From Phoenix dactylifera (taxonomy: Eukaryota; Streptophyta; Magnoliopsida; Arecales; Arecaceae), in assembly GCF_009389715.1 (NCBI RefSeq), contig NC_052400.1:1302001-1366000 (forward strand): 64,000 bases of DNA, written 5' to 3'. The notes below the pieces were generated by a model that did no database searches, was not told the origin of the DNA, and saw only the letters and a program-made list of their open reading frames with translations. The position numbers and the translations under genes were made by a program. Of this stretch, positions 42,737 through 64,000 are shown one piece after another (the stretch's first letter is position 1; the number at the start of each line of letters is the position of its first letter).

Positions 42737-43102
42737 GCTTCATCATATATGTTGTTCTGTCCAGGTCATTTTTCTTCTTAAATTTTTGAAAACAAAAATA
42801 GAAAATAAAAGCAATACTTAGTCTCCAAGAACAATTACTGCTGGATACTAAATGAGATTTTTCTTCTGTAATGAACGCAAGGGAAGCAACTTGACTTTTG
42901 TATAGCATATTATTATAACAAAGAAATGCATGATGCAGTGCCTAACTGTCAAAACCTTATCCATGATCTCTGCGTACGTTTCGTAGAGATCCATCACCAT
43001 TACTCAAGATAGACCCATCACCCAGACGGCAAATACCTTAGTGTTCAATCTACGCTGATGGACATCTGAGGATATTATGAAAACTAAATTTATTATAGAT
43101 AT
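42737..43102. other. Short unique spacer; nothing recognised
   Basis: AT-rich sequence between the nested solo LTRs and the Tat element. It ends with GATAT, the target-site duplication of that element. Confidence 0.5.
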
Positions 43103-44103
43103 TGTTGGGGAGAATAAGATTTTTCCCCCAAATGACATAAATGCCCCTAAGAAGACGTACAACCTCCGACCCCGGACGACCGAAGTCGGCGTCCGACCTC
43201 GGAACGTCCGACCTCGGAACGCCCGACCTCACGACGACCAACCTCGAGACCTCCGACCTAAGAAAAACCCTGATGTTCGAGGTCTACTCTTGTCAACCAC
43301 CTGCTACGGCCGTGCACCTCTGAGGTCCGGCCAAGGACCATACCCTGACGCCCCTCTGGCATTTATTGCGCATGACCACTGTAACCCTCCGGCTTACTCC
43401 ACAATAAATGCGGATCTCCGGCTTACTCCACAATAAATGCGGATCTCCGGCTTACTCCACAATAAATGCGGATCTCCGGCTTACTCCATAATTAATACGC
43501 ATGGCTCCTGCCATCTACGGACTCTCAGCTCTCCACGGCAGATCAACCCAGCAGGGTCTAATCGACTATGATAAGTCTCTGATCTCGGCCATACCTCCGA
43601 CACCAATGCAATAATTCGCCTGATAGCGTGCTAGTTCGGGCTGTACGACGCCCTCACCGCCGACATCTGTGCAATAATTCGCCTGACCGTGCGCCGACCT
43701 GAACAAACACGCCGAGCCGTACTACGGCCTCGCCCTGTTACATCGCAGGTAAACCGACCCCCGCCTATAAAAGGGAGCCTTGGCCTCTCAGGAGGGGGTG
43801 GGAACATTCATACACTCTAAAAACACTGTTTATCTCCCTTCTCTACACTATTTGCCCCCTTCCTGACTTGAGCGTCGGAGGGCCGGCGCCGGAAAACCCG
43901 GCCACCGGTTCGTGTGCAGGCACCCAGACGGAGGACGCCGCAAGCCGACGGATCGCCGCCCCGCTGCGAGGACCTGCTGCTCCTTCTCTCCGACCGCCCC
44001 AGGCGGAGGACGCCGCCTGCTGACGGATCTTCGCCCCGCCGTGAGAAACCGCCGCTCCCTCTCCTCGACCGAAGATTGCCCCCGGGTCCAATTTCCAGCA
44101 ACA
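43103..44103 (+). repeat. 5' LTR of the Tat element
   Basis: It begins TGTTGGGG and ends CCAGCAACA. It holds a TATA box, TATAAAAG, at 43766-43773 and three and a half copies of a 28-bp unit (cggcttactccacaataaat...) at about 43390-43490. The primer-binding site follows directly, with TGGCGC at 44106-44111; I do not assign the tRNA. Confidence 0.97.
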
Positions 44104-44136
44104 GTTGGCGCTAGAGGAAGGGCCCGAGTAGCAGTC

Positions 44137-45598
44137 ATGAAGTTGAGAAGTAAGGGAGCCTCTAACACCTCCCGGCGTCCCCCGCAAAGTCCTGGACACT
44201 CTGTCCAGAATTCTCCAACTCCGGCGGACCCAGTTCCTCAGGTCCAGCCGGAACAGTTCGACGCCTTGGTACAGCAAGTCCAGGCCCTGGCCGCCGCCGT
44301 TCAAGGCCTACGGCGCGAGGAGGCTTTACCCACGCTTCCCCCGCAGGCCCAGGTCCTGCCGGAGTGTCTCCCCAACGGCCCGGTTCTCCCAAGCCAAAAC
44401 TTGCATGGCTCCTCCAGAGCCAACAACGAAGAACGAGCTTCTCCCCGGAGGGAGTTACCGGGAGAAGGTTTCGACCGGAGACCCCAACTTTCTGAGGCAG
44501 AATCAGCCCCAGACCACCGCGAGCCGGCGCAAACCACAGCAACAATCCCACGGATGGGGGAGCTCGACCGAAAAGTTGAGCATTTGGAGCACCAGATTGC
44601 GGCGCTCCACAGCAAGAAGGCAAGACAGGAGGGAGACTTTGAGTTCACTACCAAGTCCCCCTTCCCCCGCCAGATCGAGGATGAGCCGGTTCCCGCGAGG
44701 TTCAAAATGCCTCAAGTGGAACCCTACAGCGGGACGACCGACCCTCTCGACCACCTGGAGAGCTATCGGGCCCTCATGGCCCTGCAAGGGTCCTCGGAGG
44801 CCATACTCTGCAAGGCCTTCCCAGCGACCCTCCGAGGGACCGCTCGGCTTTGGTTTTCTGGACTGAAGCCGAACACGGTGTCCTCTTTTGAGCAGCTCGG
44901 CAGGCAGTTCGCCACCAACTTCGCTGCCAGCCGGCGTCAACGACGAAACGTCAGACTCCCTCCTCGACATCAAACAGAAAGAGGGGGAGTCCCTCAAGGA
45001 GTACCTGGACCGCTTCACTGCCGCTACATGGGAGGTTCGCGAGCTAGACCAGTCGATAGCTATGTCGGCCCTGAAGACGGGGGTTCGCTCATACCGATTC
45101 CTTTTCTCCATCGAGAAGAGCTTTCCGGCCGACTTCACCGAAATGTTGGCCCGAGCTCGGAAGTATGCCAAGGCCGAGGAGGCAGTCGCCTCCAGGCGGG
45201 GAGCAATTGAGCCCGCCTCGAAGAAGCAGAAGAAACGCCGCGAAGAGCGCGGCCGACGAAGGAGCCGATCCCCCCGCCGAGAGAAGAACCTCCCCAGACT
45301 GAGAAGTCCGCCCCGACAGCAGAGGCGATCTCAGCAGAGGACCCCTCCTCGACCGAGGTCCCCACCACGGCCTCGGACGTACCCGGGGAAGTACGAGAAC
45401 TACACACCCGTCAACGCTCCCCGGGCCGAGATCCTGATGGAGATCGAGGGTCGGGACTTCTTCCGACCCCCGCCTCCTATGCGAGACACGGGATTCCCCC
45501 GGAATCCCAGAAAATATTGCCGCTTCCACCGGGATCGTGGGCACGACACGGAGGACTGCATCCAGCTCCGGGATGAGATAGAAGCACTCATCCGATGA
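44137..45598 (+). pseudogene. gag: gag of the Tat element, broken by a frameshift
   Basis: Gag builds the retroelement particle. The frame opens at ATG 44137 (MKLRSKGASN) with a Pro/Gln-rich N-terminus, then a capsid-like part containing PYSGTTDPLDHLESY and LPATLRGTARLWFSGLKP. Around 44940-44955 the homology moves to the next frame (TSDSLLDIKQKEGESLKEYL onward), so one base was gained or two lost there. The second half ends with an Arg/Ser-rich tract and a zinc-knuckle-like CRFHRDRGHDTEDC. The frame stops at TGA 45596-45598, directly upstream of and in frame with pol. The element therefore cannot make full-length Gag without a frameshift. Confidence 0.88.
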
Positions 45599-48500
45599 GG
45601 AGTACTCAACCGGTTCGTGAGGAACCGACATGAGGAAACGAGGCCGGCAGAGAATGTCGCACCAACTGAAAATCCGGGCGACAACAGGCCTGTCGCCGGC
45701 ACCATTAACATGATCGGGCGGGCCTCGGCAGGAACGGCCGCCCAAGGAGCACCCCCGAAGCGCCCACGCACTGATGAAGTCATCTCGTTCTCGGACGAGG
45801 ACTTAGAAGGGGTCGAAACCCCTCATGATGACGCTGTGGTCATCTCTATGATTGTAAATAGGTTTGATGTAAAGCGTGTCCTAGTTGACAATGGAAGCTC
45901 AGCCAACGTTTTGTATTATCATGCTTACCAAAAGATGGGGTTGACAGAAGGGCATCTCCGGAGAGTCAATGCCCCGCTGGTTGGATTTACCGGAAATGCG
46001 GTCCCGGTTGAAGGTGAGGCCAGCTTCCTTGTCACAGTCGGCCTCGCCCCCCGGGAGAGCACGGTGAGGATGGACTTCCTGGTGGTCCGTCTGCCCTCGG
46101 TCTACAACGCCATCCTTGGGCGCCCAGGGCTAAATACCCTTCGAGCCGTGGTTTCAACTCGCCATTTGCTCATGCGGTTCCCCACCGGCCAAGGAGTAGG
46201 CGAGGTCCGCGGAGACCAGCTGGTCGCCAAGCAATGCTACATGGCGGCCCACACAGTAAAGCAACCAGCCGAGGCGCCGGACCACCCGATGGGCCCTTTG
46301 CTGCCCATAGAAACCCTCGATGCGAGGGATACCCTCTGGAAGAAGCAAGTAGAGCCCGGTGAGCTCCTTATTCAAATCCCACTACAAGAAAATTTTCCCG
46401 AGCTAACTGTGCAGGTCGGCTCCGGCCTCGGCGCCCGCGAGAGGGATTGCCTTGTCAGCTTCCTGCGGGACAACGCTGACGTCTTCGCCTGGTCGCCTGC
46501 GGACGTGCCGGGAATTGACCCTGGAGTCATGATCCACCGACTCCAGGTAAGGCCAACCAGCAGGCCTGTGAAGCAGAAGAAAAGAGGCTCTGCTCCGGAG
46601 CAACAACGGGCTGCGGCTGAAGAGGTGGACAAGCTCCCTGGAGCCGGTTTCATCCGGGAGGTCTCCTACCCGGACTGGCTCGCCAACATAGTCCTCGTGA
46701 AGAAGGCCAACGGAAAATGGCGTATGTGCGTGGACTACACCGACTTGAACAAGGCCTGCCCAAAAGACAGCTTCTCCCTTCCGAGCATCGACCAGCTCGT
46801 CGACTCCACTTCAGGACACCAACTGCTAACTTTTATGGACGCCTTTTCAGGATACAACCAAATCCGAATGGCGCCAGAAGACGAGGAGAAGACGGCCTTC
46901 ATCACCGACAAGGGCACCTACTGCTACAAGGTGATGCCCTTTGGCCTGAAAAATGCTGGGGCCACCTATCAGAGACTGGTCAGCCAAATTTTTAAAGACC
47001 AGATCGGCCGGAACATGGAAGTCTATGTGGACGACATGCTGGTAAAGAGCCAAGCGGCGGAACACCACATAGCCGATCTCAACGAGACATTCGCCAAGCT
47101 CAGAAGATATCAAATGAAACTCAATCCGGCGAAGTGCGCGTTCGGGGTCACCTCGGGCAAGTTCCTGGGTTTCATAGTGACCCAGCGCGGAATTGAAGCC
47201 AACCCGGAGAAAATCCGGGCACTGCAAGAAATGTCGCCTCCAAAGACTGTTAAGGAGGTGCAACGGCTCGCGGGGCGGGTTGCCGCCCTGGGAAGGTTCG
47301 TCTCTCGGTCAGCCGAGCGATGCCTCCCCTTCTTCAAGAGCCTCAAACGGCCGAAAGACTTCCGGTGGACGGAAGAATGCCAGCAGGCCTTTGAGGAGCT
47401 TCGGAGCCTTCTGGCCTCTCCCCCGCTGCTCACCAAGCCCCAGAAAGGCGAGATTCTTTACTTATATTTGGCCGTCTCCCCAGCTGCAGTGAGCTCAGTT
47501 CTCGTCCGGGAAGAGGACAAGCTCCAAAAGCCGGTCTATTACACCAGCCGGGTTCTCAGGGATGCTGAGACCCGATATTCTAAACTTGAGAAGACCATCT
47601 TCGCTCTCATCATCTCGGCTCGGAGACTCAGGCCTTACTTCCAAGCCCACACGATAGCAGTATTGACCGACCAGCCTATGAAGCAGATATTGCAAAGGTC
47701 AGATCGTGCGGGGAGAATCGCCAAATGGGCGGTCGAGCTCGGAGAATTCGACCTCGAATATCGGCCTAGGCCGGCAATCAAAGCTCAGATACTCGCCGAC
47801 TTCATCGTGGAGTGCACCCTTCCGGACGATCCCGAGCTGCCATCCGAATCCGTGGAAGAGGCCCCGAGGCAGCCATGGGTCCTGCACTCGGACGGGTCTT
47901 CGACCTCGGGGGGTAGCGGGGCCGGACTTATCCTCACCAGCCCAGACGGAGTGGTGGCCGAGCAAGCTTTGCGCCTCGAATTCCCGGCCTCGAACAATGA
48001 GGCCGAGTATGAGGCTCTCATCGCCGGGCTCAAGCTGGCGAAAGAACTAAAAGTGGAAGACCTGACGGCCTTCAGCGACTCCCAGCTAGTGGTGAACCAG
48101 GTCCAAGGAGATTTTGAAGCTAAAGAGCCATCCATGCAAAAGTATCTCCAAAAGGTGCGGGAACTCACATCTGCCCTGAATTCTTTCAATATTCAGTATA
48201 TTCCCAGAGCGGAAAACCTCAGGGCAGACCAGCTATCCAAACTGGCCACCTCCCGCATGAGCGAGCTTCCCAAGGGAACAGCGCTCGAGTATCTTCGGGT
48301 CCCCAGCACGGAGGAACCCGAGCCCACTATGTGCATCGACTCCGAGCCAAGCTGGATCGATGGGCTCGTCTGCTATCTTCAGGACGGAACTCTACCTCAT
48401 GACGAGACGGAGGCTCGCCGAATCAAGCGCCAGGCTCCCCGGTATGTCTTGTACGAGAATAAACTCTATCGACGATCATTTACTTCTCCCCTTCTCAGAT

Positions 48501-49585
48501 GCCTCCGCCCCTCCGAGGCGGACTATGCCCTCCGAGAGGTCCATGAAGGGATCTGCGGAAATCACCTGGGGGGTCGGGCATTAGCCCATAAGGTCCTGCG
48601 ACAAGGATATTATTGGCCCACACTCCAGAAGGATGCAACAGATTTCGTCCGGAAGTGCGATCGGTGCCAGCGAAACGCCAATATCCAGCGCCGACCTTCA
48701 GCCCTGCTGACCTCCATCATCGCCCCCTGGCCGTTTGCCCAATGGGGGATCGACATCCTGGGGCCCTTTCCCCTGGCCACCGGACAGAGAAAGTTTCTGG
48801 TCGTCTCCATTGACTACTTCACCAAGTGGGTCGAGGTCGAGCCCGTCGCCCGGATCACCGAGCAAAAGATGCGGGACTTCGTGTGGAAGTCCATAATCTG
48901 CAGATTCGGACTACCCCGTATCCTTATATCTGACAATGGTCGACAATTTGACAATGTTCATTTCAGGGAATTTTGCTCTGAGCTTGGCATTGATCACCGT
49001 TTTACCTCAGTCGCTCACCCCCAGACAAACGAGGAAACTGAGGTAACTAACCGCACTATTTTGCAGGGGCTCAAGGCTAGGCTTGATCGGTCCAAAGGAC
49101 AGTGGGTCGAGGACTTGTACAATGTCCTTTGGGCGTACCGGACCACGTTCCGACTGCCCACGGGAGAGACCCCCTTCAACCTAGCATACGGCACTGAAGC
49201 CGTCATCCCGTTGGAGATCGGCCTGCCTTCTCCAAGGGTGGAACATTACGACCCCGACACCAATCCTTCCTAGCTCAGGAGCAACTTGGACCTCGTCGAA
49301 GAGACAAGAGAGGTCGCCCGGGTCCGCATGGCGAGGTACCAACAGCGAACGGCCCAATACTACAACTCCAGGGTCAAGCCCAAGCTCTTCAAAGTGGGGG
49401 ACCTCGTCCTCAGGAGAGCCGAGGCTTCTCAACCGACCGAGCAAGGAAAGCTCGCCCCAAATTGGGAAGGGCCGTATCAGATCGCCCGGGTGCAACGACC
49501 AGGGGCGTACAAATTAAAGTCCCTAGAGGAGACCCTGATCCCGCGAAGCTGGAACTCCGAGAATCTACGAATGTACTACCAGTAA
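45599..49585 (+). pseudogene. pol: pol polyprotein of the Tat element (PR-RT-RH-aRH-IN), one internal stop
   Basis: In the frame of the second half of gag. Protease is marked by LVDNGSSANVLYY (about 45880). Reverse transcriptase runs about 46640-47060 with KMCVDY-like RMCVDYTDLNKACPKD and the catalytic YVDD at 47024-47035. RNase H follows at about 47445-47790. A second RNase H begins near 47885 with LHSDGSS and includes NNEAEYEALIAGL and SDSQLVV, the dual-RNase-H mark of Tat elements. Integrase (about 48490-49260) shows the CDRCQ zinc end, GIDILGP, SDNGRQF and a Glu in EETEVTNRT, i.e. the D-D-E residues. A TAG at 49271-49273 cuts the frame, which otherwise continues to 49585 with the integrase C-terminus (KVGDLVLRRAE). 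It is otherwise intact. Confidence 0.93.
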
Positions 49586-49689
49586 AACCCCTAGGGGTTC
49601 AAAACAATCAGGACAATGGACTCAGTTTCTTTTTTGCAAATACTTCCCTCATCTGGATAGCTGTAACTCTCTTCTAACGTTGGGTCGTC

Positions 49690-50880
49690 TGTGATCCTCA
49701 GATTCCCCGGCCAAAATCGGGATGCCTCGAGGCTCGACCGTAGAGTCCCAAACTCCCTCGATCTCGAGAAGTATCGCAGGACGATGGAACATCGACTTGG
49801 CGCAAAATTCCCTTGACTAAGGTCAGGATGCCCCGGTTCGTCGGGATGCCCCGAGACGTCGGGATGCCCCGGCCGTAGGGATGCTCGAGACGTCGAGATA
49901 TGAGCACGGTCCTCTCTGACCAGACGAGCTCGGCTCGTTCTCCATCAACTCCCACCTATGAGCACGGTCCTCTCTGACCAGACAAGCTTGGCTCGTTCTC
50001 CTACCCCGACCAAGGTCGGGATGCCCCGAGGGTCGACCGTAGAGAACCAGACTCCCTCGACCTCGGGAAGCGTCGCAGGTCGACAGTGCGTACCCAGACC
50101 CCTCGACCTGACGAACGATTCCTCGACTAAGGTCGGGATGCCCCGAGGGTCGACCGTAGAGAACCAGACTCCCTCGACCTCGGGAAGGCGCCGTGAGGGG
50201 TGGAAAGGGTGGCTCCACCCGGGGCGCCACAAAGTGGACCCCCGGGAGCGGTCGACGATCCCCGATCCCCGAAGCGAGCGATCCTCCGACTAAGGTTGGG
50301 ATGCCCCGAGGGTCGACCGTAGAGAACCAGACTCCCTCGACCTCGGAAAGCGTCGCAGGTCGACAGCGCGTACCCAGACCCCTCGACCTGACGAACGATT
50401 CCTCGACTAAGGTCGGGATGCCCCGAGGGTCGACCGTAGAGAACCAGACTCCCTCGACCTCGGGAAGGCGCCGTGAGGGGTGGAAAGGGTGGCTCCACCC
50501 GGGGCGCCACAAAGTGGACCCCCGGGAGCGGTCGACGATCCCCGATCCCCGAAGCGAGCGATCCCCCGACTAAGGTTGGGATGCCCCGAGGGTCGACCGT
50601 AGAGAACCAGACTCCCTCGACCTCGGGAAGCGTCGCAGGTCGGTAGAGCGTACCCAAACCCGCCGACCCGACGAGAGATTCTTCGACTAAGATCGGGATG
50701 CCCCGAGGGTCGACCGTAGAGAACCAGACTCCCTCGACCTCGGGAGGCACCACAGGTCGGCAAAGCGTCCACGGACTCGCCAACCTGACGAAAGATCCCT
50801 CGACCAAGGTTGAGGCGCCCCGAGGTCCGACCATAGGGTCTCAAGCTCCCTTGACCTCGCAAAGAGCTACAATTCAATAA
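49690..50880. repeat. Tandem array of alternating 117-bp and 163-bp units between pol and the antisense gene
   Basis: Copies of aaggtcgggatgccccgagg begin near 50012, 50129, 50292, 50409, 50572 and 50691, giving spacings 117, 163, 117, 163 and 119. Two unit types therefore alternate as a 280-bp higher-order repeat, with more diverged copies on both sides. All long frames here are by-products of the repeat. Confidence 0.92.
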
Positions 50881-51910
50881 AGCCTCACCAAATCCTCTCA
50901 ACCTCGGCGGGCGCCGTTGGGTCTGTGAGAAGGCCGAGCCCCCTTTTAGTCAAGAATGACTCCGGAGGTCGACGAGGAAGAGAGTTAATCTACTCCACCA
51001 TGCAAAGCATAACTCTAAGAATGCAAGAGGTACGTCGAACTAGACGCCCTCCTTGTCAAATTTTATCTACATACTGCTAAGCGGAATCTCGACGTTGGAG
51101 TCTTATTTCGCCCCAAAGCCGGGCTTCTCCAATAGGTCGGCTTAAGACCGACCCCCTAACTACATTATGCATGCTCCGTTCGTCAAGTCTCCGCAATTTG
51201 TACGAAGGCTTCATAAATTAGGGCCCAACTTGGCTCTTCTGCGTAAACTTCGACGTCCAGCTGAGAAAGTGGTCCCGGCCACGAGTATACCAGCCAAACA
51301 CGGGTGCCAAGACAGCCTGTGGAAATCCCAGCCTTGCTTACCGAAATCTCGGCAGAGTCCGAGAACAATAACTACGAAAACCTTCGGCAATAACTTGCTT
51401 ATTAGCCCGCGCCCCCTATGAGAGGTTCGAAGTTAAGTTCGGAAACCCGACTAAACTCCCCGAATAGCGGCACGCACAGACCTAGTTCGGTCTTACTTGA
51501 AGGGCTAAGGCCCGACCTCGATGCCTTGGGATTTCCCTGAAGGCTAAACGTGGTGACTTCCACGACTCTCAGATCCGGGCTATAGGACTTAGAGAAATTT
51601 TCTAAAAAACCTAAGACTCGGAGCTCCTTTGGTCGGAATGACTGGAACCCGAGAAGGCTAAGACATAGCTCGAGAAAAAGGAGCAATTTCGTTAAGCAAC
51701 CCGAAAACTAAAATGTGAAGTTAGAGGTCGACGAGGCGGTTAGCTAAGGCTCTAGCCTCGTTCGCAACAAAAAAGAAAGGCAAGCACAGAATGACAAAAA
51801 TATCTTTTTTCATTAACGAAGGGCCGGAAGACCAATTACAAAATTGGAAGTCGGCCACTCAAGGGCCGACCCCGGATACAACGAAAAAGAAAAGAAAAAT
51901 ATGCTAAGCC
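50881..51910. other. Tat element internal spacer; no coding recognised
   Basis: About 1 kb between the tandem array and the stop of the antisense gene. It has no recognised domain on either strand. It probably includes the 3' untranslated region of the antisense transcript. Confidence 0.5.
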
Positions 51911-54058
51911 CTAAGCGGCAGGAGCAACATCCGGGGGGTCGTCCGGCACATTGATGACTTCGTGATCTTCATCCGGAACGGGCTCGGGGTCGGGGGCAGG
52001 AGGTTCGGGCACCACCTCCGGGACGGCGTCCATCTCGGCCGCTGGAGCCGCCTCCATGACGCCGTCCGCCTCGGCCACCCCCGCCGAAGGTTCGGCGGGG
52101 TCTTGTTCGTATATCCCCGCCTCGGATGTCAAAATGGCGGGGAGGGCTTCCACGTCGGACCCCCAGCCAGGTCCTCCCTTGGACGAACCGTCGAGAGGTC
52201 ATACTGAGGGCAATACCGGAGCATCTGCACCCGGAAGTTCTCGAAGCCTCGGAGGAAACCGTCCACCGTCTCCTCCTCCAACATGTCGCGGAACTCTTGC
52301 GACTCTTTGAAGAGCTCCACAGCATGATCGGCTCGGTCGAGTGCCCTCCTCTCCCAGGCCTCAAGTTGCTCGATTCGGAGGCGGGAGACCCTGTCCTCAT
52401 GCCTGAGGGCCGCGACCTCGGCCTGGACCTCCCCTAAGCGCGCCTCCGTGCCGCGCAAGGCCGACCTGGTTAGGGCATGGGCGGCCTTCTCCTCCCCGAG
52501 CCCCTCCGCCATAGCGAGGCGCTCAGCCTCGGTGGCCGCCCACCGAGCCTCGGCCGCCGCCCACCGAGCCTCGGCCGCGGCCAACGCCGCCTCCAACTCG
52601 GCGACTCTTTTCTTGGCCGGCTCCAGCTGTTCGCCGAGCTGTCGGACTTCTTCCCGACACCCGTGGGCGATGAACGCCAAGGTGTCGAGCTCGAGAATAT
52701 GCTGAGAAGAAAGAAACGAGGGTATTGTGAGTTGAGAAGCACACGAGTACGCTAGTAACACAAGGAAATTAAGAAGGAAGCTTACCCGGGCGGTGTTGCA
52801 GTAAGCGCTGCCAACGACCTCCTCCAGCGAAACATTTCGGAACACGGCCCGGTCCGCTGGAAGTACCGCACGCCGCAACATGGAGCGCGCGACCTCGGCA
52901 TCCTGAAAGGCCGAACTCCCCTCGGGAATAGGGGAGTCCGGCTCGACCGACTCTTCTCGGAAAGCCCGGGAAGAACTCGGCACGACCGGGCCCGAGATCC
53001 CAGAGCCGCTCGCTTCGGAGCCTCGAGCAAGCCCGGGTTCTGGCTGCTGCGGGGCCATGGACGACTCCCCCCGCTGGGCAAGGGGGGCAGGGCAAGGAGG
53101 GGCCGACGGGCCCACATCACTAACGACCCACTCCCGCCTCGGGTCGGCTGCAGGGGCCTCCACCTCGGGGCCACTCCTCCCGGCCGACGTAGAAGCGTCG
53201 TCTGTCCTCGCCCTCTTCCGAGGCTGGGGCGCAGCACCCCCGACCTCGGCCTCTCGCCTCCTTAGGCGAGAGAAAAGTGATGTGTTGCTGGTCGGCATGC
53301 GGGGAATATCTGAAATCAAGAATTTTGTTAAGAGTCAGACCAGTGACAGTAAAGACAGAGAACAAAAAATAAATAAATAGAATAATGCGACCGCCCTTAC
53401 CCTCGGGGCGCGCCGAGCTCAGACCCACGCTTGCTAGGGCGTCCTCCCGCAGGAGCTCGGTCAGGTCATTGCCCCTCCCGAGGGCTTGCACTGAGTCCAG
53501 AGTCCTCAGCTCCCTCCTTGAGGGTTCGGAGAGCTTATTGAGGGCCTTCAACCGAGGGTACCCCCATATCGGGTCAAACCCCCAAGGCGCCTCGGACGCC
53601 AGAAAGAAAAACTTCCCCTTCCACTCGTGAATCGAGGAAGGGGCACCCTGAAAGAGTGACATACCGCCCCGAAAGGCAAAGTATAGCCACCCTGCGTCCG
53701 CCGGGTTTTTCTTTAACAGAAAACACCGGCGGAAAAGGCCTACCGAAATCGGGATCCCGTGCCCGAGGCACAGGGATAAAAACTCGATTATGGTCCTCCA
53801 TGAGTTCGGAGCCAACTGCGCCGGGACGAGCTGGTACTCGGCCAGCAAGTTGCTCACGAACTCATGGGCGGGAAAACGCAGGCCCGCCCAAAGTGTCTCG
53901 CGGTAAACCGCGATCCGACTTGGGGGCGGCTGCGTCACCCTATCCTCCGGCCCTGCAGTTTCAAGGCGAAACCCGGGCTGGAAGAAGAAACGGGAGCGGA
54001 TCAACTCCAGCTCCTCCTCCGACAGACTCGACCCAACTTCTTCGGGACCCAAACCCAT
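51911..54058 (-). CDS. Antisense spliced gene of the Tat element (putative gypsy-type transposon protein, PF04195-like)
   Basis: Three exons on the strand opposite gag-pol join in phase with GT-AG borders: 54058-53401, 53309-52786 and 52701 onward. The first exon encodes SLSEEELELIRSRFFFQPGF, ETLWAGLRFPAHEFVSNLLAEY and QLAPNSWRTIIEFLSLC, the pattern of the Pfam family known as putative gypsy-type transposon. The second is Pro/Ser-rich with a basic RKRAR stretch. The third is a long Ala/Glu/Arg-rich coiled coil (AELEAALAAAEARWAAAEARW) ending REDLAGG. Near 52160 the likely frame shifts, and the continuation ALPAILTSEAGIYEQDPAE runs to a stop at 51911, so this copy probably carries a one-base lesion. 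The biochemical role of this protein is unknown. It has its own TATA box upstream. Confidence 0.75.
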
Positions 54059-54277
54059 TCTCACAGAAGAGTGGAGTAAAAGTTAAAAGCAGAAAATGGA
54101 AGTTGACGAGGAGAAGAAAAGAGGAAACCCTAGTGAAAACAGAAAGAAAACCTACTGGACATTGCCGGAAATCACTCCGGGCACCACCGGCAAGATTCGG
54201 TTGAGGAAGAAAGCAAGGGGAAAAGACGACGAAAATAAGAGGCAGCCAAACAAGACCTTTAGGGCAGACTCGTGGGG

Positions 54278-54285
54278 TTTATATA
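54278..54285 (-). promoter_or_regulatory. TATA box for the antisense gene of the Tat element
   Basis: On the minus strand TATATAAA lies 220 bases upstream of the antisense start codon at 54058, in a GC-rich context. A start about 30 bases downstream would give a leader of about 190 bases. It is separate from the LTR TATA boxes. Confidence 0.6.
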
Positions 54286-54930
54286 GACCCCCCTGACGGC
54301 CCAGATCGACGGGGTCGGTCCCCATCCCCCCGATCGGGTTGCGCCACGTGTCGACCTCGGAAGCCGAAGCACTGTATTCACTCCGGTTTAATAAATCGGA
54401 TACGAAATCGAAGCGTTGTCCCATCGGATCTCGGGGCCTCATCATGGGTCCGCAAAATCAAATCGTCTTGAGGAACAAGCGGGCGCCGCCCCCGCTCCCC
54501 TCATTTAATAAGACCTGGGACACGTGGAGCCTCGATGCGGCCTCCACCTCTCCAGAATTATGATCCAGTAACACGAAATCGGAAGCGTCCGACCTTGGGT
54601 CACGCCGCGTGTCCGTTTTAAACCCCGTAACGGCACGATCATTGATGAGCGAGAGGTCTCGATTACAGGATCGAGGCACCGCCTCGACGAGCTCGAGGAC
54701 CCGCATTATTAATCCGCCGTAAAGCTATCCTGACGACTCAAAAGACGCCACCACCGCTTCAAGAAGCGTAGTGATACGAGCTCACTGAATAAAGCAGCCT
54801 CGAGACGCCAAAGGGCGCAGGTCTCACCATGAAAGCTCCGACAAGCGCAAGGGGGCGGACGAGACTCGCCCCCCAACCTTAGTGACAGACTTTACTTCCC
54901 ACGTCCGAGCCCACAAGTCGCTCGAACTCG

Positions 54931-54944
54931 GAAGTCGGGGGTAG
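54931..54944 (+). other. Polypurine tract of the Tat element
   Basis: GAAGTCGGGGGTAG lies directly against the first base of the 3' LTR, where plus-strand DNA synthesis is primed. The same sequence, as its complement, borders the reverse-oriented LTR at 63428. Confidence 0.75.
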
Positions 54945-55945
54945 TGTTGGGGGGAATAAGATTTTTCCCCCAAATGACATAAATGCCCCTAAGAAGATGT
55001 ACAACCTCCGACCCCGGACGACCGAAGTCGGCGTCCGACCTCGGAACGTCCGACCTCGGAACGCCCGACCTCACGACGACCAACCTCGAGACCTCCGACC
55101 TAAGAAAAACCTTGATGTTCGAGGTCTACTCTTGTCAACCACCTGCTACGGCCGTGCACCTCTGAGGTCCGGCCAAGGACCATACCCTGACGCCCCTCTG
55201 GCATTTATTGCGCATGGCCACTGTAACCCTCCGGCTTACTCCACAATAAATGCGGATCTCCGGCTTACTCCACAATAAATGCGGATCTCCGGCTTACTCC
55301 ACAATAAATGCGGATCTCCGGCTTACTCCATAATTAATACGCATGGCTCCTGCCATCTACGGACTCTCAGCTCTCCACGGCAGATCAACCCAGCAGGGTC
55401 TAATCGACTATGATAAGTCTCTGATCTCGGCCATACCTCCGACACCAATGCAATAATTCGCCTGATAGCGTGCTAGTTCGGGCTGTACGACGCCCTCACC
55501 GCCGACATCTGTGCAATAATTCGCCTGACCGTGCGCCGACCTGAACAAACACGCCGAGCCGTACTACGGCCTCGCCCTGTTACATCGCAGGTAAACCGAC
55601 CTCCGCCTATAAAAGGGAGCCTTGGCCTCTCAGGAGGGGGTGGGAACATTCATACACTCTAAAAACACTGTTTATCTCCCTTCTCTACACTATTTGCCCC
55701 CTTCCTGACTTGAGCGTCGGAGGGCCGGCGCCGGAAAACCCGGCCACCGGTTCGTGTGCAGGCACCCAGACGGAGGACGCCGCCAGCCGACGGATCGCCG
55801 CCCCGCTGCGAGGACCTGCTGCTCCTTCTCTCCGACCGCCCCAGGCGGAGGACGCCGCCTGCTTACGGATCTTCGCCCCGCCGTGAGAAACCGCCGCTCC
55901 CTCTCCTCGACCGAAGATTGCCCCCGGGTCCAATTTCCAGCAACA
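54945..55945 (+). repeat. 3' LTR of the Tat element
   Basis: 1001 bp, same length and ends as the 5' LTR, with TATAAAAG at 55608-55615. By eye it differs from the 5' LTR at about seven single bases and has no length change. The 28-bp tandem units have the same copy number. Confidence 0.97.
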
Positions 55946-56067
55946 GATATTTATTTGATTACACATTGTAATATGCATAGGAGACAATGAACTCTAGCAT
56001 AAATTTTTTATTCCATACATCAATACAAGGTAATGTAACATGGTACACCATATGTTCTTAATATACA

Positions 56068-56140
56068 CAGGGCCGGCCCGAGCCTTAGGCGACCGAGGCG
56101 GTCGCCTAAGGCCCCGGGCCAATGGAAGGCCCCCGGGAGG

Positions 56141-56176
<36 letters not shown>

Positions 56177-57053
56177 CTGACCGTGACCAAAAGGAAGCAA
56201 AGGCCCCATATCGAGTCTTCCCCCTTGATGGAAGGGAGGTGGAGAGTTTCTTGGCCTGCAGAGGGGAAATTTAGGAAGTTGGGGATGGTAGTTTTGTTTT
56301 GGATGGAGAGAGAGAGAGAGAGAGGAGGGATTTGGTTGGCTTGATACACGCCTGAAGCCACTCTTATCTTTCATCCCTTCTCTTGTTTGGTTTTGGTCTT
56401 GGTTTTCCTTCCCTCACATTACTCCTGATCCAGCTGGGCCATCAGGAAGAAAGGGGGATTGGAAATGGACTTCTTGGAGGGTGGAGATTCTTTTAATTTT
56501 CTCCTCTCGGTTTCTTCTCTCCCCTTGGGTGGTAGAGAGAGGAGGGAGGGGATTGAATGGCTGCTGTGCTGTGATGTTGCGGTTGCTGCTTGGGTACTCA
56601 CTTGAAGGGGAGATGGAGGGATGGGACTTTTATTAATTAGATGGAGTCAATTTTCCATAGTGCCCCTACTTTCTTTTATAGAGAAGCTTCTTTCTAGACA
56701 AATTCTTTTCTTTACCTTGACCATGAAGTGCCATGGAATGACCTTTTCCTATTCCGCTCGACATGATAAACAATATTGCCAAGCATTATCTCAGTTATTT
56801 AATCAGTTTTATGGTCTTTTTTTAGGATAATTACTTTTCTGCACTTCCATTCAAAAATAATATTAAATTAAAAAGATTTCTTGCCTATCTTTATTAGATT
56901 CATGTATCTTTGTTGAAATAGTGTACTTGATAGCTATCCATTTTCATATCATTTTTTTAAATATTTTATATTTGTTAAAAAAATTTATTATTAAAAAAAA
57001 GGCCTTACTCATTGGATTCGCCTTAGGCCCCCAAGTGTATTGGGCCGCCCCTG
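56068..57053. mobile_element. hAT-type non-autonomous element, 986 bp, in the 3' flank of BBE-like gene 2
   Basis: The left end reads CAGGGCCGGCCC and the right end GGGCCGCCCCTG, which inverts to CAGGGGCGGCCC. Just inside, ccttaggcg and cgccttagg are also inverted. Flanking octamers AATATACA (56060-56067) and AGTATACA (57054-57061) match at seven of eight bases, as expected for an aged hAT duplication. It contains two GA microsatellites (about 56141-56174 and 56304-56323) and no transposase. Confidence 0.85.
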
Positions 57054-57069
57054 AGTATACAATATTGGT

Positions 57070-58683
57070 TTACAGAGAAAGAAGGGGTGGGATGCTCTGT
57101 TCATTTCTGAAGAAGTTGTCTGGATCAACCTTAGCCTTCACAAATGCCAGTCGTTTGAAGTTATCCTTGAAATACTTGATACCCCAAACCCTTGCATCTT
57201 CGTAAGTTGTATGTTTGTCAGTTCTACCCAAGTCAATATCCTTATAGTTTAGATAAGCAGCCCTTGGATGGCTAGAGACGTATGGAGTCATGAAGCCATA
57301 CAACTTCCTCATCCAATCTAGATGCCTCTTTGTCACTGCAGGATCCATCTGAAACCACCTCATGAAGTACTGAATCATATATAGATTCCCCTTCCTGTGA
57401 GGGAAGGGAATTGCTGATTCTGAAATCTCACTCAGCCTTCCACCAAAGGAATCCATTATCATCACCAAAGGCTCATCTTCCGCTTCCAGAAGAAATTTCC
57501 ATATCTTTTCCCACTCGGTCTCAGGAATTGGCTCTCTAACAAAGTCCGACTTGGCTTTAAAAGAGCTATTGTATTCAGGTCTCCTGTCCAATAAGATGTT
57601 TGCACTTTCATTGCTGTAGCCTGCAAAGAATAGAACGGACTCCAACCAACTCATCTCCGAACCTGAGCAGTCCTTGGCCTCAAAACCCAGTTCAGGAAAG
57701 CTCGTCTCCATCAAGGTGACGAGTTCTTTGCATGTTCCGAGGAAAAGGGAGTTGAACACAGCTTGAATGGTTCTATTTCCTGTTGTTGAGTCATCCACAG
57801 CTAGTGCTATAACTCTCATGTAAAGATTCTCATCGAACTTTGCCGCAATTTGCTGCCACCTGCTTACAAGGTACGTAGCATTTTGCCCCAGATTTCTGTT
57901 TATATTAAACGCAGTGACTGTAGGTGGAACATACGCCAACTTGAGTTTATAGGAGAGGACAATGCCAAAGCTTGCTGCACCACCTCCTTTTATGGCCCAA
58001 AACAGGTCCTCACCCATGGATTCTCGATTCAGGAGGTTGCCATCGGCATCCACCAACTGCGCATCGATGACATTATCCGCAGCCGTGCCATACTTGCTTG
58101 ATATCATCCCGATCCCGCCGCCACTGATGTGGCCGCCAACTCCGATGGTAGGGCATACCCCTGCAGAGAAAGCAGCGGTCTTGTTCTTCACTCCGATCGT
58201 GTAATAAAGTTCTCCGAGTGTTGCACCAGCCTGAACCCAAGCGTTGCTATGCTCCGCATCGACTGTGATCGATCGGAGGTTAGCAAGGTCGACGATGATG
58301 AAGACCTCGTGGTCTGAAACATAAGACATGCCCTCATAATCGTGGCCACCGCTCCGGACCCGGATATTAAGACCATACTTCCTGCTGCAGATGACGGAGG
58401 CTTGAACGTGGGATTCATTTGTTGGCGTGACAATGAGGACAGGCTTCTTTGTAGCGGAGGAGTAGAGGAAGCGGATGTTTTGGATGGATGATCGAAGGAC
58501 AGTGTTGTAGGCAGTGGTATCTGGGGCATACACTAGATGGGAGGAGGCATTGGTGGATTGGGTGTGGCTGAGGAAGCATTGGAGGAAGTCTTCGTGGGCT
58601 GTATTAGAAGCTGTGATGGCAGATGTAGCTGTTAGAAGCAAGAGAGCAATAATTGCAAGATTTCCAAAGGCTGATATTGCCAT
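57070..58683 (-). CDS. Berberine bridge enzyme-like FAD-linked oxidoreductase 2 (537 aa)
   Basis: Intronless gene for a secreted flavoprotein of the BBE-like family. I chose ATG 58683 (MAISAFGNLAIIALLLL) because it gives a clean signal peptide (residues 1 to about 25) and exactly the length of gene 1. An in-frame ATG at 58740 lies upstream of a TATA box and would bury the signal peptide. RSGGHDYEG provides His114 and GVCPTIGVGGHISGGG provides Cys177, the two covalent FAD anchors. The BBE domain ends AAYLNYKDIDLG and VDPDNFFRNEQSIPPLLSL. The residue three after Cys177 is Ile180, a bulky oxygen gate, so dehydrogenase activity is more likely than oxidase. Substrate is unknown. Its stop codon lies 16 bases from a hAT element, which must contribute to or displace its 3' untranslated region. 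Confidence 0.95.
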   Translation of the reverse strand: MAISAFGNLAIIALLLLTATSAITASNTAHEDFLQCFLSHTQSTNASSHLVYAPDTTAYNTVLRSSIQNIRFLYSSATKKPVLIVTPTNESHVQASVICSRKYGLNIRVRSGGHDYEGMSYVSDHEVFIIVDLANLRSITVDAEHSNAWVQAGATLGELYYTIGVKNKTAAFSAGVCPTIGVGGHISGGGIGMISSKYGTAADNVIDAQLVDADGNLLNRESMGEDLFWAIKGGGAASFGIVLSYKLKLAYVPPTVTAFNINRNLGQNATYLVSRWQQIAAKFDENLYMRVIALAVDDSTTGNRTIQAVFNSLFLGTCKELVTLMETSFPELGFEAKDCSGSEMSWLESVLFFAGYSNESANILLDRRPEYNSSFKAKSDFVREPIPETEWEKIWKFLLEAEDEPLVMIMDSFGGRLSEISESAIPFPHRKGNLYMIQYFMRWFQMDPAVTKRHLDWMRKLYGFMTPYVSSHPRAAYLNYKDIDLGRTDKHTTYEDARVWGIKYFKDNFKRLAFVKAKVDPDNFFRNEQSIPPLLSL

Positions 58684-58720
58684 TGTTATATGATGGTTCT
58701 TGTTCTGGGATGTGGCTAGG

Positions 58721-58730
58721 TATATATAGA
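58721..58730 (-). promoter_or_regulatory. TATA box of BBE-like gene 2
   Basis: TATATATA (complement of 58721-58728) lies about 40 bases before the chosen start codon at 58683. The implied leader would be very short (about 10 bases), so an additional upstream start site is possible. Confidence 0.5.
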
Positions 58731-59569
58731 GAAAATCCATGGAGTTCTGAACGTGTGGGAAGAGGTGAGAAGGATGAATTAAAATTCAGCCAAGACCATC
58801 CGCCACGATTGAACGTAGACTTTTGGGAAGCAATTGGTACAAGTTTTTGCAGTAAGAAATGAATGCAGTTATAAATTATTACGTGATTTACGCACAAGCT
58901 AACGCACCTCCGGCTGTTTGTTTTTTTTTTTTTTTTAAGGGAAACTAATGGCAGGTCCATTTATTGACGGCTCTTTAACGTTTAGCCGGTCTTTAACATT
59001 TAACCCTTGTTGATCGATTGTTTAACAACCGGTCTAGATGTATTTCAATATTGCAATATAGGACGAAAATGCCCCCGCTTCTCTCATTCCCACCAAAGAA
59101 GGGGAAGAAAGAAGCCGCCGCCGGCCACGGCCAGCCCCCTTCCGCGCCTGCCATCGGCCACATTCCGCCCCCTCCTGTGCCCGCCGCCGGCCCCGCCTCC
59201 TTGTGCGCCGCCGGGAATGCCCTCGCCCCCACGGTGGGAAGGTGCCGAAGAAGAGGAACCGCTGGCCCACCGTGGCCCACCCCCTCCCGAACCCCCTTCC
59301 GCGCCGCCGGAAACGCTCCACGGTGGGGAGGTGCCGAAGAAGAGGAACCGATGGGCAGCCGCGGCTGCCGCAGGAGCCGCCGGCTGTAACTTGGCCCCCT
59401 CCTGCGGCCGCCACCGTCCGGCCCCCTTCCAGCGTCGCGGGCCCCGCGGGAGGAGAAGAAAGAAGAAAAAAGAAGAATGGAAGAAGAGAAGAAAAAAGAA
59501 AAGAAAAAGAAAAGAAAAAAAAAGAAGAAAAGGAAAGAAAAAGAAGAAAAGAAAAATAAAGTTAAATCA

Positions 59570-60370
59570 TCTTGGAACACAGTTAAATAAGTTTGGAACA
59601 CAGTTAAATAAGTTTGGAACACACTTAATCTACCCTGACATACAGTTAAATCATCCCGGCATACAGTTAAATAAGCTTAGAATACACTTAATCTATCCTG
59701 ACACACAGTTAAATCATCTCGGCATAGTTAAATAATCTTAGGATATACTTAATCTATCATGGCACACAGTTAAATCATCCTGGCACACAGTTAAATAAGC
59801 TTGGAGCACACTTAATCTAGCCTGGTATACAGTTAAATCATCTCGGCACGCCATTAAATAAGCTTGGAACACACTTAATCTAGCCTAGCATAGAGTTAAA
59901 TTATCTCGGAACACAGTTAAATCATCCCGGCATACTGTTAAATAAGCTTGGAACATACTAAATCTAGCCTGGCATAGAGTTAAATTATCTCGGAACACAG
60001 TTAAATCATCCCGGTACACAGTTAAATAAGCTTGGAATACACTTAATCTAGCTTGGTACATAGTTAAATTATTCAGGCACATAGTTAAATAAGCTTGGAA
60101 CACACTTAATTTACCCTGGCACACAGTTAAATCGTCCCAGCACACAGTTAAATAAGCTTGGAACACACTTAATCTACCCTGGCACACAGTTAAATCATCC
60201 TGAGACATAACTAAATAAGCTTTGAACACACTTAATCTACCCTGGCACACAATTAAATCATCTCGGCACACAGTTAAATAAGCTTGGAGCACACTTAATC
60301 TAGCTTGACATACGGTTAAATCATCTCGAAACATAGTTAAATTTTTTTCGCACACAATTAAATCTTCTCT
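59570..60370. repeat. Left arm array: 21-bp repeats in a fixed three-variant order (63-bp higher-order unit)
   Basis: Successive 21-bp units share caca-gTTAAAT----C-gg. Three variants follow one another in order: one with AGTTAAATCATCccgg, one with AGTTAAATAAGCttgg, one with ACTTAATCTAccctgg. About 13 such triplets are present. Because 21 and 63 are multiples of three, the minus strand stays open over 150 codons (LTVCRDDLTVCQGRLSVFQAY-like), which I regard as incidental. Confidence 0.92.
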
Positions 60371-60379
60371 GTATACAAT

Positions 60380-60990
60380 TTAACTGTGTGCCAAGCCAGA
60401 TTAATTGTGTTCCAAACTTATTTAACTATGCCGAGAAGACTTAATTATGTACAGAGAAGACTTAACTGTGTGCAGAAAAAATTTAACTGTGTTTCAAGAC
60501 GATTTAACTATATGCCGGGCTAGATTAAGTGTGTTCCAAGATTATTTAACTGTGTGCCAAGTTAGATTAAGTATGTTCCAAGCTTATTTAACTGTATGCC
60601 GAAATGATTTAACTATGTGCCATAATAGATTAAGTGTGTTCCAAGCTTATTTAACTGTATGCCGAGATGATTTAATTGTGTGCCGGGGTAGATAAAGTGT
60701 GTTCCAAGCTTATTTAACTGTGTGCCGAGATGATTTAACTGTATGCCAGGATAGATTAAGTGTGTTCCAAGCTTATTTAACTATGCGCCAGAGTTGATTA
60801 AGTGTGTTCCAAGCTTATTTAACTGTGTGCTAGGGTTGATTAGATGTGTTCCAAGCTTATTTAACTGTGTGCTACAGTAGATTAAGTATGTTCCAAGCTT
60901 ATTTAACTGAGTGCCGAGATAATTTAACTGTATGCCAGGGTAGATTAAGTGTGTTCCAAACTTATTTAACTATGTTCCAAGATAATTTAA
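60380..60990. repeat. Right arm array: inverted copy of the 63-bp higher-order repeat
   Basis: The same three 21-bp variants occur as complements (ttccaagcttatttaactg, tgccgagatgatttaactg, tgccagggtagattaagtg), in about ten triplets. Single-base differences from the left arm are scattered, so the arms have diverged but would still pair extensively. Confidence 0.92.
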
Positions 60991-62206
60991 CTTTATTTTT
61001 CTTTTCTTTTTTTCTTTCTTTTTCCTTTCTTTCTTTTTTCTTTTTTCTTTTCTTCTTTCTTTTCTTCTTTTCTTTTCTATTTTCTTTTCTTTTCTTCTTT
61101 TTTTTCCTTTTCTTTGCTTTTTTTTTCTTTTCTTCTATTTTCTCCTCCTATGAAGCCGGTGGCGCCAGAAGGGGCCGGGCCGTGGTAGCCGCGGCAGCTT
61201 TATTTATTTATTTATTTATAATTATTTTATTTTTAATTATAATATATTATTTATTTATTTATTTATTAGTTCATTCATATAAATATAAATATTTATTTAT
61301 GCATTTATTTATTTATTTTTCTTTTTTTTCTTTTTTTCTTTTTTTTCTTCTTTTTCTTTTCTTTTCTTCTTTTTTTTTCTTTTCTTTTTCTTTTTTTTTT
61401 TGCTTCTCTTCTTCCCTTCTTCTTCTTTCTTCTCCTTCCGCGAGTCGGCGGCGCTGGAAGAGGGCCAGGCTGTGGCGGTTGCAGGAGGGGGCCGGGCAGC
61501 TGGCCAGCGTCAGCCGTGGCTAGCCAGCGGAGAACTCCTCTCCTCCCGCGAGGCCAGCGGCGCCGAAAAGGGGTCGGGCAGTAGCGGATGTGGGAGGAGG
61601 GCGGGTCGTGGCCGGCGACAGCCGCAGGACGCGGGAGGGCACCCTTCTTCCTCTTCTTCGGCACCTCCCCACCGTGGGGGCGGAGGCGGAGGCATTCCCA
61701 GTGGCACGACCATGGGAGGGGGCGGGCCGAGGCTGGTGGCGGCCGCGGGAGGGGGCTCGAGGGGGCGGGCCGCGGTCGGCGGCGGCCGTGGCTGGCCGTT
61801 TTCTTCTTCTTCTTCTTCTTGGGGGGGATGGGAGATCAGGAGGGGCGTGGTATTTTCATTATCTTCTTTTAAAATAAAAGGGGCTTAGGGACCGAAAATT
61901 ACAGTTTGGAAAGTTTTTGAACCGGTTGTTTTAGATTCAGTCAACAAAAACTTTTTGTTACTGAGGAGTCTCCGGAAGGGTGAGAAATTAATTTTTCATT
62001 TTTTTTATCTGTACAGCTTACATTTCTTGTATAGCGCATAATTTTATATTGCTTGTACAGCTTTTTTCTATTTAATATGAGAAAGTATCCTTCTCTACTC
62101 AACGTGTGATATTCCCTTTTCTATCATAAATGCTTCGAGGCGTGCATTTATGTTAATCCATTTTTAAGCTAGTTTTGACCAACTTAACATGCACAAACTT
62201 TGTAGC

Positions 62207-63428
62207 TGTTGCTGGAAATTGGACCCGGGGGCCGCCGCGAAGCCGGGGAAGGAGGAGCTCCGCTGCTACAGGGGGCGGACGGCGGTGCACCGGCCGGCTG
62301 CGTCCTCCACCGTGGGGCGTGGGAGCGTCCGAAGAGGGGTGGCCGGGCTCCCCGGCGCCGGCCCTCCGATGCCTAAGTCAGAGGGGGCCAGTATGTGGAG
62401 AGAGCAGGGAAGAGAGTATGTGGAGAAGACAGAGAATATTGTGTTCAATTGTGTCTGTGCTGTTTTCTTCCTTTTTTCCCCGGTCTAGGAGGGTTCTCTC
62501 CAGCTCCGGGTTTTTCCTCTTGTTTTTGGTCCTCTCTCCCTTTTCCCCCCAGGTTTTCTTTTATAGGAGGATTTTTGTTACCTGGGAGGTGACAGGAGGT
62601 TTGTCCTGTTTTGTAATAATTGGGCACGATTTGGCCCATTAATGGCGTAATGGAGAACGGGACCGGATCAGACCGGAATTAGGGAGTTGTCACGGTCGAT
62701 CGGACCTGTTGGAGTGGTTGAACCGCCGGCTGTGGTGGGCCTGGGGTCCGTGGATGGTAAGTGCATTTATTACCGAATGAACCGGCGGTCAGGGAGAGCC
62801 ATACGTTCTGATGGTTCAGTGATCCGGAGATCGTCTTGGGCCGTGTTCATTAAATGACTGAGTGCATCGGAGACTTGAGAGAGTCTCGTGCATTAATGGC
62901 AGGTCGTGCCGAATACCTGCGAAGATCTTATGTCTTGATGGCTTGGAGATAGTGGCAGGTTATAGTGGAGTTGTCAGGTCCCTTAGAGGGTTAGGTGGAA
63001 ATGGGATATTTGGCTAAGGCATGGGCTCGGCCTGCTGTGCTCGGCCTTCTGGTCTCGGCCTTCTGGTCTCGGCTCTCTGGTCTCGGCCTTCTGGTCTCGG
63101 CCTTCTGGTCTCGGCCCTCTGGTCTCGGCTCTCTGGTCTCGGCCTTCTGGTCTCGGCTCTCTGGTCTCGGCTCTCTGGTCTATGAGCTCGAGAGCGGAAG
63201 AGCCCGATCACTTAGGATGAGCTTGAGAGCGGAAGAGCCCGATCACTTAGGATGAGCTCGAGAGCGGAAGAGCCCGATCACTTAGGATGAGCTCGAGAGA
63301 GGAAGAGCCCGATCACTTAGGATGAGCTCGAGAGCGGAAGAGCTCGATCACTTAGGATGAGCTCGAGCTTGCTGATGGATTTAGGTGCTATAATTACATT
63401 TGTGGGGTGGTCCATTTTTCCACCAACA
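62207..63428 (-). mobile_element. LTR (1222 bp) of a second Tat-like retrotransposon, reverse orientation
   Basis: On the minus strand it begins TGTTGGTGGAAAAATGG and ends GGGTCCAATTTCCAGCAACA, the same last 20 bases as the LTRs of the element at 43103-55945. A TATA box, CCTATAAAA, is the complement of 62559-62567. Most of the LTR differs from the other element, so it is a related but distinct family. The next bases inward (63429-63460) complement the polypurine tract GAAGTCGGGGGGTAG, which identifies this as the 3' LTR of an element continuing past the window. GTAGC (62202-62206) would be its target-site duplication. Confidence 0.88.
63040..63370. repeat. Two short tandem arrays inside the second LTR
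   Basis: A 14-bp unit (ggtctcggccttct or ggtctcggctctct) is repeated about ten times at 63050-63180. It is followed by five copies of a ~36-bp unit (gatgagctcgagagcgg...aagagcccgatcacttag) at 63185-63365. They lie in the upstream (U3) half of the LTR, where such repeats often modulate promoter strength. Confidence 0.9.
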
Positions 63429-64000
63429 CTACCCCCCGACTTCCGAGTCTGAGCTGCTTTTTGGCTCGGGCGAAGGAAGTAGTTCAGTCATCGATCGTCC
63501 TGGTGCTGTGAGCGTTCTTACACCAAGGCGACTGAAGACGCTTTTTCTGCTCGGAGTCCGTTCTTTGGGAACGTCGGCAGAGAAGAATCCAAGTAAAGAT
63601 AAATGAGAATGTAAAGACATTAAATAAATGGGTACCTTGTACCGTGTGCGTCCTTGCGCCGAGGCGACCGAAGACGCTTCTCTGCTCGGACTCCGTTCTT
63701 TGGGGACGTCGGCAGAGAAAAGTCCAAGAATAAAATAATGTAAAACATTAAATGAATGGGTACCTTGTACCGTGTGCGTCCTTGCGCCGAGGCGACTGAA
63801 GACGCTTCTCTGCTCGGACTCCATTCTTTGGGGACGTCGGCAGAGAAAAGTCCAAGTAAAGATAAATGAGAATGTAAAGACATTAAATGAATGGGTACCT
63901 TGTACCGTGTGCGTCCTTGCGCCGAGGCGACTGAAGACGCTTCTCTGCTCGGACTCCGTTCTTTGGGGACGTCGGCAAAGAAATCCAAAAATAGACAATA
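63429..64000 (-). mobile_element. Internal 3' region of the second Tat-like element with ~130-bp tandem repeats
   Basis: Four copies of a ~127-136-bp unit begin near 63510, 63646, 63773 and 63908. Each contains gaggcgactgaagacgcttct, ctcggactccgttctttgggg, cgtcggcagagaa and gggtaccttgtacc. The last copy is cut by the window edge. No coding domain is visible. In the other Tat element this position holds the antisense gene's upstream region. Confidence 0.8.

Follow-up and report, generated by a model that had tools for sequence, protein, structure and literature searches.

Introduction

Long inverted arms that are themselves internally repetitive are found in the plant fold-back families FARE, Tnr8, SoFT and Hairpin and in Drosophila FB, to which the element described here is likened by description and not by sequence. 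It lies in a stretch of 64,000 nucleotides of the Phoenix dactylifera genome (NC_052400.1, positions 1,302,001 to 1,366,000; C9:1302001-1366000 in the 773-Mb assembly that was searched), called the window below and numbered from its first nucleotide. The element occupies 58938-61998, upstream of a berberine-bridge-like gene, and very probably belongs to a Mutator-type family (Mutator-like elements, MULEs) as an old, non-autonomous copy with fold-back structure. The initial annotation of the window had regarded its layered build as unusual and could name no family that has it. This can be corrected, as layered, long terminal inverted repeats (TIRs) with tandem repeats mark fold-back elements in the available passages of three reports (PMC4079207, PMC3169594, PMC5225508).

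Four described systems are particularly close, as judged from the parts of the cited papers used here. Muta1, an active MULE of Aedes aegypti, resembles the palm element in its target-site duplications (TSDs) of 8-9 bp, its TIRs consisting of a short terminal motif and subterminal tandem repeats and its numerous non-autonomous copies, among which the number of repeats varies, and its authors labelled it a type 2 fold-back element (PMC5225508). It differs in that its TIR measures 145 bp and contains nine 12-bp repeats and in that its transposase is known, whereas the arms in the window are about 1.5 kb long, their 21-bp units have a higher order and no transposase was found among the matches listed. 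Tetris, a fold-back element of Drosophila virilis, shares the succession of flanking, tandem-repeat (outer), inner and middle domains, is apparently non-autonomous and has 8-10-bp TSDs; it was on TSD size and earlier suggestions that its authors put it in Mutator. Its units are about 220 bp long, in contrast to the 21-bp units with 63/84-bp higher order of the palm family (PMC4079207). Tm1, a Mutator/Foldback element of root-knot nematodes, has a 9-bp TSD and a composite, multi-domain TIR with repeats of about 14 bp, but one of its known copies has a Phantom-type transposase, and both host and repeat unit are different (PMC3169594). MuTAnT of Medicago is a plant MULE with fold-back structure, GGGG ends, a 9-bp TSD, TA targets and a frequent location near genes; it differs in its 144-bp TIRs and known autonomous copy, and a 21-bp array is not mentioned in the portions of the paper used (PMC4486113).

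Tandem repeats in such arms have been described elsewhere. Those in the TIRs of Galileo contain extra transposase-binding sites (PMC3688188) and their number can differ between the two arms of one copy (PMC3573991), while in plant MULEs tandem duplication of TIRs and its possible benefit have been discussed (PMC3310237). Among the entries listed in literature searches there was no palm or plant family of the present build, although one may nevertheless have been published. As far as the parts used extend, three features were not encountered in these reports: a 21-bp unit with higher-order arrangement in a plant MULE-like family, a sister subfamily that shares the ends but has a one-way array, and the differential conservation of one unit.

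Results

The element is one copy of a dispersed family of plant DNA transposons. Its left arm matches at least 235 pieces genome-wide (best 40 of 758 candidates scored); twenty stretches, and then three sets of three, were fetched. The aligned copies start with GGGGAACTTGCTCAGCGGTCCATTTATTGAC and end with GGGATGGGAAAGTAAATTCCCC. Among the matches listed, 38 of 45 left ends (two partial rows were dropped from this set before pairing) pair with one of 48 right ends and seven are unpaired; 37 of the 38 pairs measure 2.7-6.1 kb from end to end and one, C522, measures 13.9 kb.

Both ends were available for 20 copies (the window copy, C522, L011, L012, L013, L015, L021-L028 and L032-L037). When a shift of one base per end was allowed, an exact 9-bp TSD was present in 16 of the 20 and at least eight of the nine bases matched in all of them; 11 were exact without any shift. 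When the left flank of each copy was compared with the right flank of another as a control, the corresponding counts were 8, 42 and 5 of 380. The family's TSDs are A/T-rich. Their length falls within the 8-10 bp of Mutator elements, and the long TIRs of such elements are represented by inverted GC-rich blocks in the window copy and in all eight copies of a sister subfamily (subfamily 2). The resemblance to fold-back transposons that had been noted from the window was thus borne out: further copies, TSDs and shared outer ends were sought and all are present in the genome.

The ends of the window copy were set at 58938 and 61998 by alignment with the other copies; the initial annotation had located the fold-back correctly but drew its limits too tightly, at 58990-61950. 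The 9-bp sequence TTTTTTTTA flanks the element on both sides (58929-58937 and 61999-62007). The sequence AACGTGTG (58750-58757 and 62101-62108) was considered as a TSD, with P ~0.025 from the window alone, and was rejected as the genome copies contradict it.

From the left, a terminal region on the plus strand (58938-59064), which starts with AGGGAAACT and aligns with the left ends of the eight subfamily-2 copies and of further copies, is followed on the same strand by a GC-rich block (59065-59450, GC 0.74 over 59080-59450), a purine tract recognised by sequence and composition (59450-59556) and an array of 39 units (59562-60378). The right array, on the minus strand, has 29 units (60384-60990), three of which lie in a 66-bp loop (60379-60444) between the mirrored innermost units and have the right-arm sense. 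Beyond it, the right arm carries an extra, duplicated module (60996-61438) composed of pyrimidine tract 1, a short GC block, a TTTA microsatellite and pyrimidine tract 2, with a direct repeat of 75% identity (61007-61185 and 61304-61475). The right GC-rich block (61438-61857) and right terminal region (61858-61998), both on the minus strand, complete the element, which ends with AATTTTTCA in the window copy.

The mirrored arms were confirmed by comparison of the sequence with its own reverse strand. In a self-BLAST, 59451-61108 aligned with its reverse strand over 1,761 columns at 72.3% identity, and a repeat search gave 105 inverted pairs within 58000-63000. The outer GC-rich blocks (GC 0.71-0.76) align as an inverted repeat (59065-59438 with 61448-61857), and the purine/pyrimidine tracts and the 21-bp array are mirrored as well. 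Three of the four mirrored layers originally described were therefore found, but the unique ends, the fourth, are only weakly alike: over the outermost 120 bp or so of the window copy alone, the local score was reached by 9 of 300 shuffles and the anchored score by 14 of 150. Divergence between the arms is about 28%, and they differ in length. Their innermost special units are reciprocal best matches (60337 with 60486, 60358 with 60465), which places the mirror axis at about 60411; the centre given earlier, 60372, is close to the strand switch of the units at 60378/60379 but is not the axis. The window copy thus has the mirrored blocks, tracts, arrays and inner units and the middle loop of a fold-back element. 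Its predicted RNA fold is correspondingly stable, at -874.5 kcal/mol for 59400-61150 against -370 +/- 5.8 for 12 dinucleotide shuffles, and -680.6 for the centre against -268.8 +/- 7.4 for eight mononucleotide shuffles.

The units are of three types, A (21 bp), B (20 bp) and C (22 bp), together 63 bp. Of the 38 neighbouring pairs on the left and the 28 on the right, 33 and 20, respectively, conform to the order A>B>C>A. In 20,000 shuffles of unit order the means were 12.8 and 9.6 and the maxima 25 and 20, so that the right arm equals the best shuffle. The fixed order claimed for the three variants was accordingly upheld as ordered trimers, but it is not strict, as the array in the window contains AABC, BC-only and AAA stretches. 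It is a satellite-type higher-order repeat in that diverged monomers were amplified together in order, and is an example of a minisatellite with such an order carried inside a transposon.

The order also varies among copies, with an 84-bp AABC-type repeat in L011 and C522, a different 63-bp order in C410 and C1532 and mainly a 21-bp period in the left arrays of L012 and L013. Distances between units of the same type are alike within and between the arms of the window copy (864, 612 and 555 of 2,000 label permutations reached the difference). Comparisons inside one arm, from arm to arm and among copies at distant loci give overlapping ranges (A 0.16-0.23, B 0.06-0.15, C 0.15-0.24), so the higher-order repeat predates the insertion in the window and the A-B-C order comes from the family's past. 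Amplification of trimers after divergence of the monomers is therefore supported, but not as an event local to this site. Among the changes from the unit consensus in the window, C>T and G>A account for 86 of 150, as expected for methylated, silent DNA.

Two subfamilies could be distinguished. Subfamily 1, the window type, has 11 loci besides the window (C522, which comprises L009 and L010, and L011-L020), seven of which (C522 and L011-L016) carry arrays on both strands. L014 and L016-L020 yielded just one of the two ends. The flank common to L013 and L014 is 96-97% identical, and the two may represent a single insertion. Near-identical segments (98-99%) containing the same incomplete copy were observed in L017, L018 and L019 (C926, C19 and C453); judging by sequence, they would be a segmental duplication or haplotype contigs.

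Subfamily 2 (L021-L028) has the same ends as subfamily 1 but in all eight copies its long 21-bp array, of 79 to 168 copies of TTCCTAGACAACTTAACTGTG or close variants, is on one strand. The mirrored arrays in both arms that characterise fold-back elements are thus absent from these sisters, which does not concern the window copy. The higher orders in subfamily 2 are 58, 79 and 100 bp, and a few units of the window type occur near the right tract. Units of the TTCCTAGACAACTTAACTGTG type were detected by Tandem Repeats Finder on the same strand in L032-L037, where opposite arrays were not sought. For the right end of subfamily 2, the best 40 of 241 candidates show 97-100% identity, whereas in subfamily 1 the right ends of C522, L012 and L014 match that of L013 at 86-95%; subfamily 2 therefore looks younger. 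In the one copy folded (L021, 1,200 nt of array), the array gave -247.8 against -247.5 +/- 9.2 for eight mononucleotide shuffles. With a one-way array in the sister subfamily and no hairpin in the copy folded, mirrored arrays look dispensable for mobility.

The three unit types are not equally conserved. Across 15 strict trimers in the window, departures from the consensus number 16 for unit B, 39 for A and 41 for C (P 0.00035 by swapping labels within trimers), and when C>T and G>A are left out the counts are 6, 20 and 19 (P 0.0024). Four other loci, with five arrays or array pairs and 58 trimers in all, gave the same picture (B 69, A 134, C 150; 17, 68 and 96 when C>T and G>A are omitted), with P ~0.03 or less for every set taken singly; L013 and L014 may lack independence, and the unit parse of the other copies is lenient outside the arrays. 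A diverged B called as A would leave the set of strict trimers and so bias the comparison. This bias is absent from the window, where all 21 C units are preceded by B, but some of it remains in other copies, as C follows A, for example, three times in the right array of L011 and twice in C926.

A 21-bp register was also seen in unlike repeats. Lag 21 was the strongest of lags 8-69 in all six further stretches, taken from 125-bp repeats with GTCGACC motifs (L012-L015) and from 271-bp repeats of the single-ended copies L016 and L020, whose place inside the element is presumed only. Shared ancestry of the modules may be the source of the common register. The 125-bp repeats form a middle domain in L012-L015 with motifs about 21 bp apart, and subfamily 2 has 21-bp GGGGTCGACCCC units.

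The initial annotation had envisaged an autonomous partner sharing the outer ends; it was sought, and none appeared among the matches listed. Pfam gave no match in the four open frames scanned of the nine of at least 150 aa inside the element, and Rfam none within 56000-64000. A 26-base unit pattern was absent from prokaryote and viral collections, as expected for a plant sequence. The genome is rich in MULE transposase domains (at least 150 matches; 150 of 452 candidates listed). Just one of those listed falls within 30 kb of the 81 positions of family ends or arms; it lies outside the element and is part of another MULE, whose ends are GGGGTGGTTCTATATACACCCC.

Three candidates for the partner were rejected. 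The 13.9-kb copy C522 (L009/L010, C522:173605-187481) is a fold-back copy whose interior shows frames that recur in the same direction at a distance of about 8.7 kb, together with a frame recognised by eye as gag-like; it is read as being split by an apparent nested long terminal repeat (LTR) retrotransposon. An abundant MULE with a 394-aa frame has ends that differ from those of the family. L032-L037, with unpaired or intermediate right ends, are array copies in all six cases (their frames were not domain-searched).

Discussion

A MULE-type transposase supplied in trans would cut at the GGGGAA ends of these copies. Their subterminal arrays are putative multi-site binding or enhancer DNA, and since 21 bp is about two helical turns and unit B is conserved, the sites may be phased. 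On this reading the arrays would be phased protein-binding sites, the protein probably being the transposase. This idea has precedents in the repeats of Galileo (PMC3688188) and Muta1 (PMC5225508), as described in the parts of those papers used. The arrays would grow and shrink independently in each arm by unequal exchange or slippage. Their mirrored arrangement would not be needed for transposition, and the local hairpin may feed small interfering RNA (siRNA) production and methylation. A stronger version is that a 21-bp register is maintained in the subterminal DNA across unlike modules, that purifying selection on the element preserves unit B of each trimer, and that this DNA forms a phased, many-site enhancer bound by transposase, for which mirrored and one-way arrays would be interchangeable and the hairpin irrelevant. 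This version is put forward tentatively, with somewhat more doubt than belief.

Several observations weigh against parts of this picture. The TSD of the window copy sits in a T run and is weak by itself; it becomes convincing only together with the 9-bp, A/T-rich TSDs of the family. Beyond GGGGAA and the GC blocks, the left and right ends show weak inverted likeness. Among the 150 of 452 MULE-domain candidates listed, a transposase between the family ends was not found, and the Mutator placement therefore depends on the length of the TSD, the sequence of the ends and the build. In L017-L020, which make up four of the 11 fold-back-type loci, arrays occur on a single strand, and subfamily 2 retains a stretch of 2.6 units in the opposite sense (Tandem Repeats Finder consensus) as well as GC-block inverted repeats in all eight copies (290-314 columns, 69.7-71.8%). 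Units of 16 bp also occur in subfamily 2, so the 21-bp register is not absolute.

The main competing explanation gives the hairpin a role at this site: a small-RNA locus kept for regulation of the adjacent berberine-bridge-like gene, in which double-stranded RNA would be processed by Dicer-like enzymes to 21-24-nt siRNAs and methylation or looping would tune the promoter. The predicted hairpin is indeed very stable, the gene is only about 255 bp away, the excess of C>T and G>A fits methylated DNA, and inverted repeats near plant genes often give 24-nt siRNA according to the relevant passages of PMC12595863. The build recurs at other loci, however, arguing that it was not kept for this gene alone, and in the sister subfamily the array is on one strand and the single example folded formed no hairpin. 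Such a locus is accordingly improbable. A fold-back derivative of a superfamily other than Mutator is at least as doubtful. Several superfamilies have evolved long TIRs with internal repeats, Galileo being a P element in the parts of the sources used (PMC3573991, PMC3688188), and the failure to find a transposase among the matches listed would suit this origin; but a 9-bp TSD with G-rich ends is typical of MULEs, as in the account of MuTAnT (PMC4486113), and the abundant coding MULE of the genome also begins with GGGG.

Two further explanations would dispense with a fold-back transposon altogether, and both have a negligible probability. A plain satellite, or a segmental inverted duplication, could account for the ordered 63-bp repeat and for arms that differ by about 28%, but not for ends and 9-bp TSDs shared by many loci. 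Long reads can carry fold-back artefacts (PMC12870357, in the part used), and the junction might thus have arisen in reading or assembly. An artefact would be expected to duplicate one arm almost exactly, however, and the divergence and unequal length of the arms, together with the recurrence of the architecture in other copies, make it very unlikely.

With an old, non-autonomous, Mutator-type fold-back element as the preferred reading, the question of whether fold-back arms serve hairpin or RNA biology or transposase binding is made testable, as a single family provides natural mirrored and one-way versions with the same ends, of which the one-way version looks younger. The insertion in the window also lies immediately upstream of a gene of a type associated with specialised metabolism.

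Other features of the window and genome

This gene is an open berberine-bridge-like frame of 537 aa on the minus strand (57070-58683) with FAD_binding_4 and BBE domains. About 255 bp separate the ATG chosen in this frame from the start of the element, which is upstream of it, and a TATATA stretch (58721-58728) lies between the two. The window contains two berberine-bridge-like genes in all and a Ty3/gypsy-type element, which mark it as plant DNA.

A second MULE-like copy was observed at 13772-16703. Its left and inverted right ends match GGGGTGGTTCTATATACACCCC, the left end of the abundant MULE with the 394-aa frame, and palindromic GCCGAACAGAAG...CTTCTGTTCGGC repeats inside it (14132-14315) occur also in L031. 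In the list of MULE-domain matches (150 of 452), scores from about the 34th row are near-identical and the frames mostly of 394 aa, by eye, and L029 and L030 share 98% identity along 5.7 kb. On these sequence data the 394-aa-frame MULE is possibly a recently active autonomous family.

The Ty3/gypsy-type element (43100-55946) is young, its 1,005-bp LTR repeats being 99.2% identical; it has pol at 45599-49270 and holds a 280-bp tandem array (50004-50745) and a minus-strand Transposase_28 frame. Three adjoining, unlike tandem arrays with units of 14, 35 and 135 bp lie at 63022-63983.

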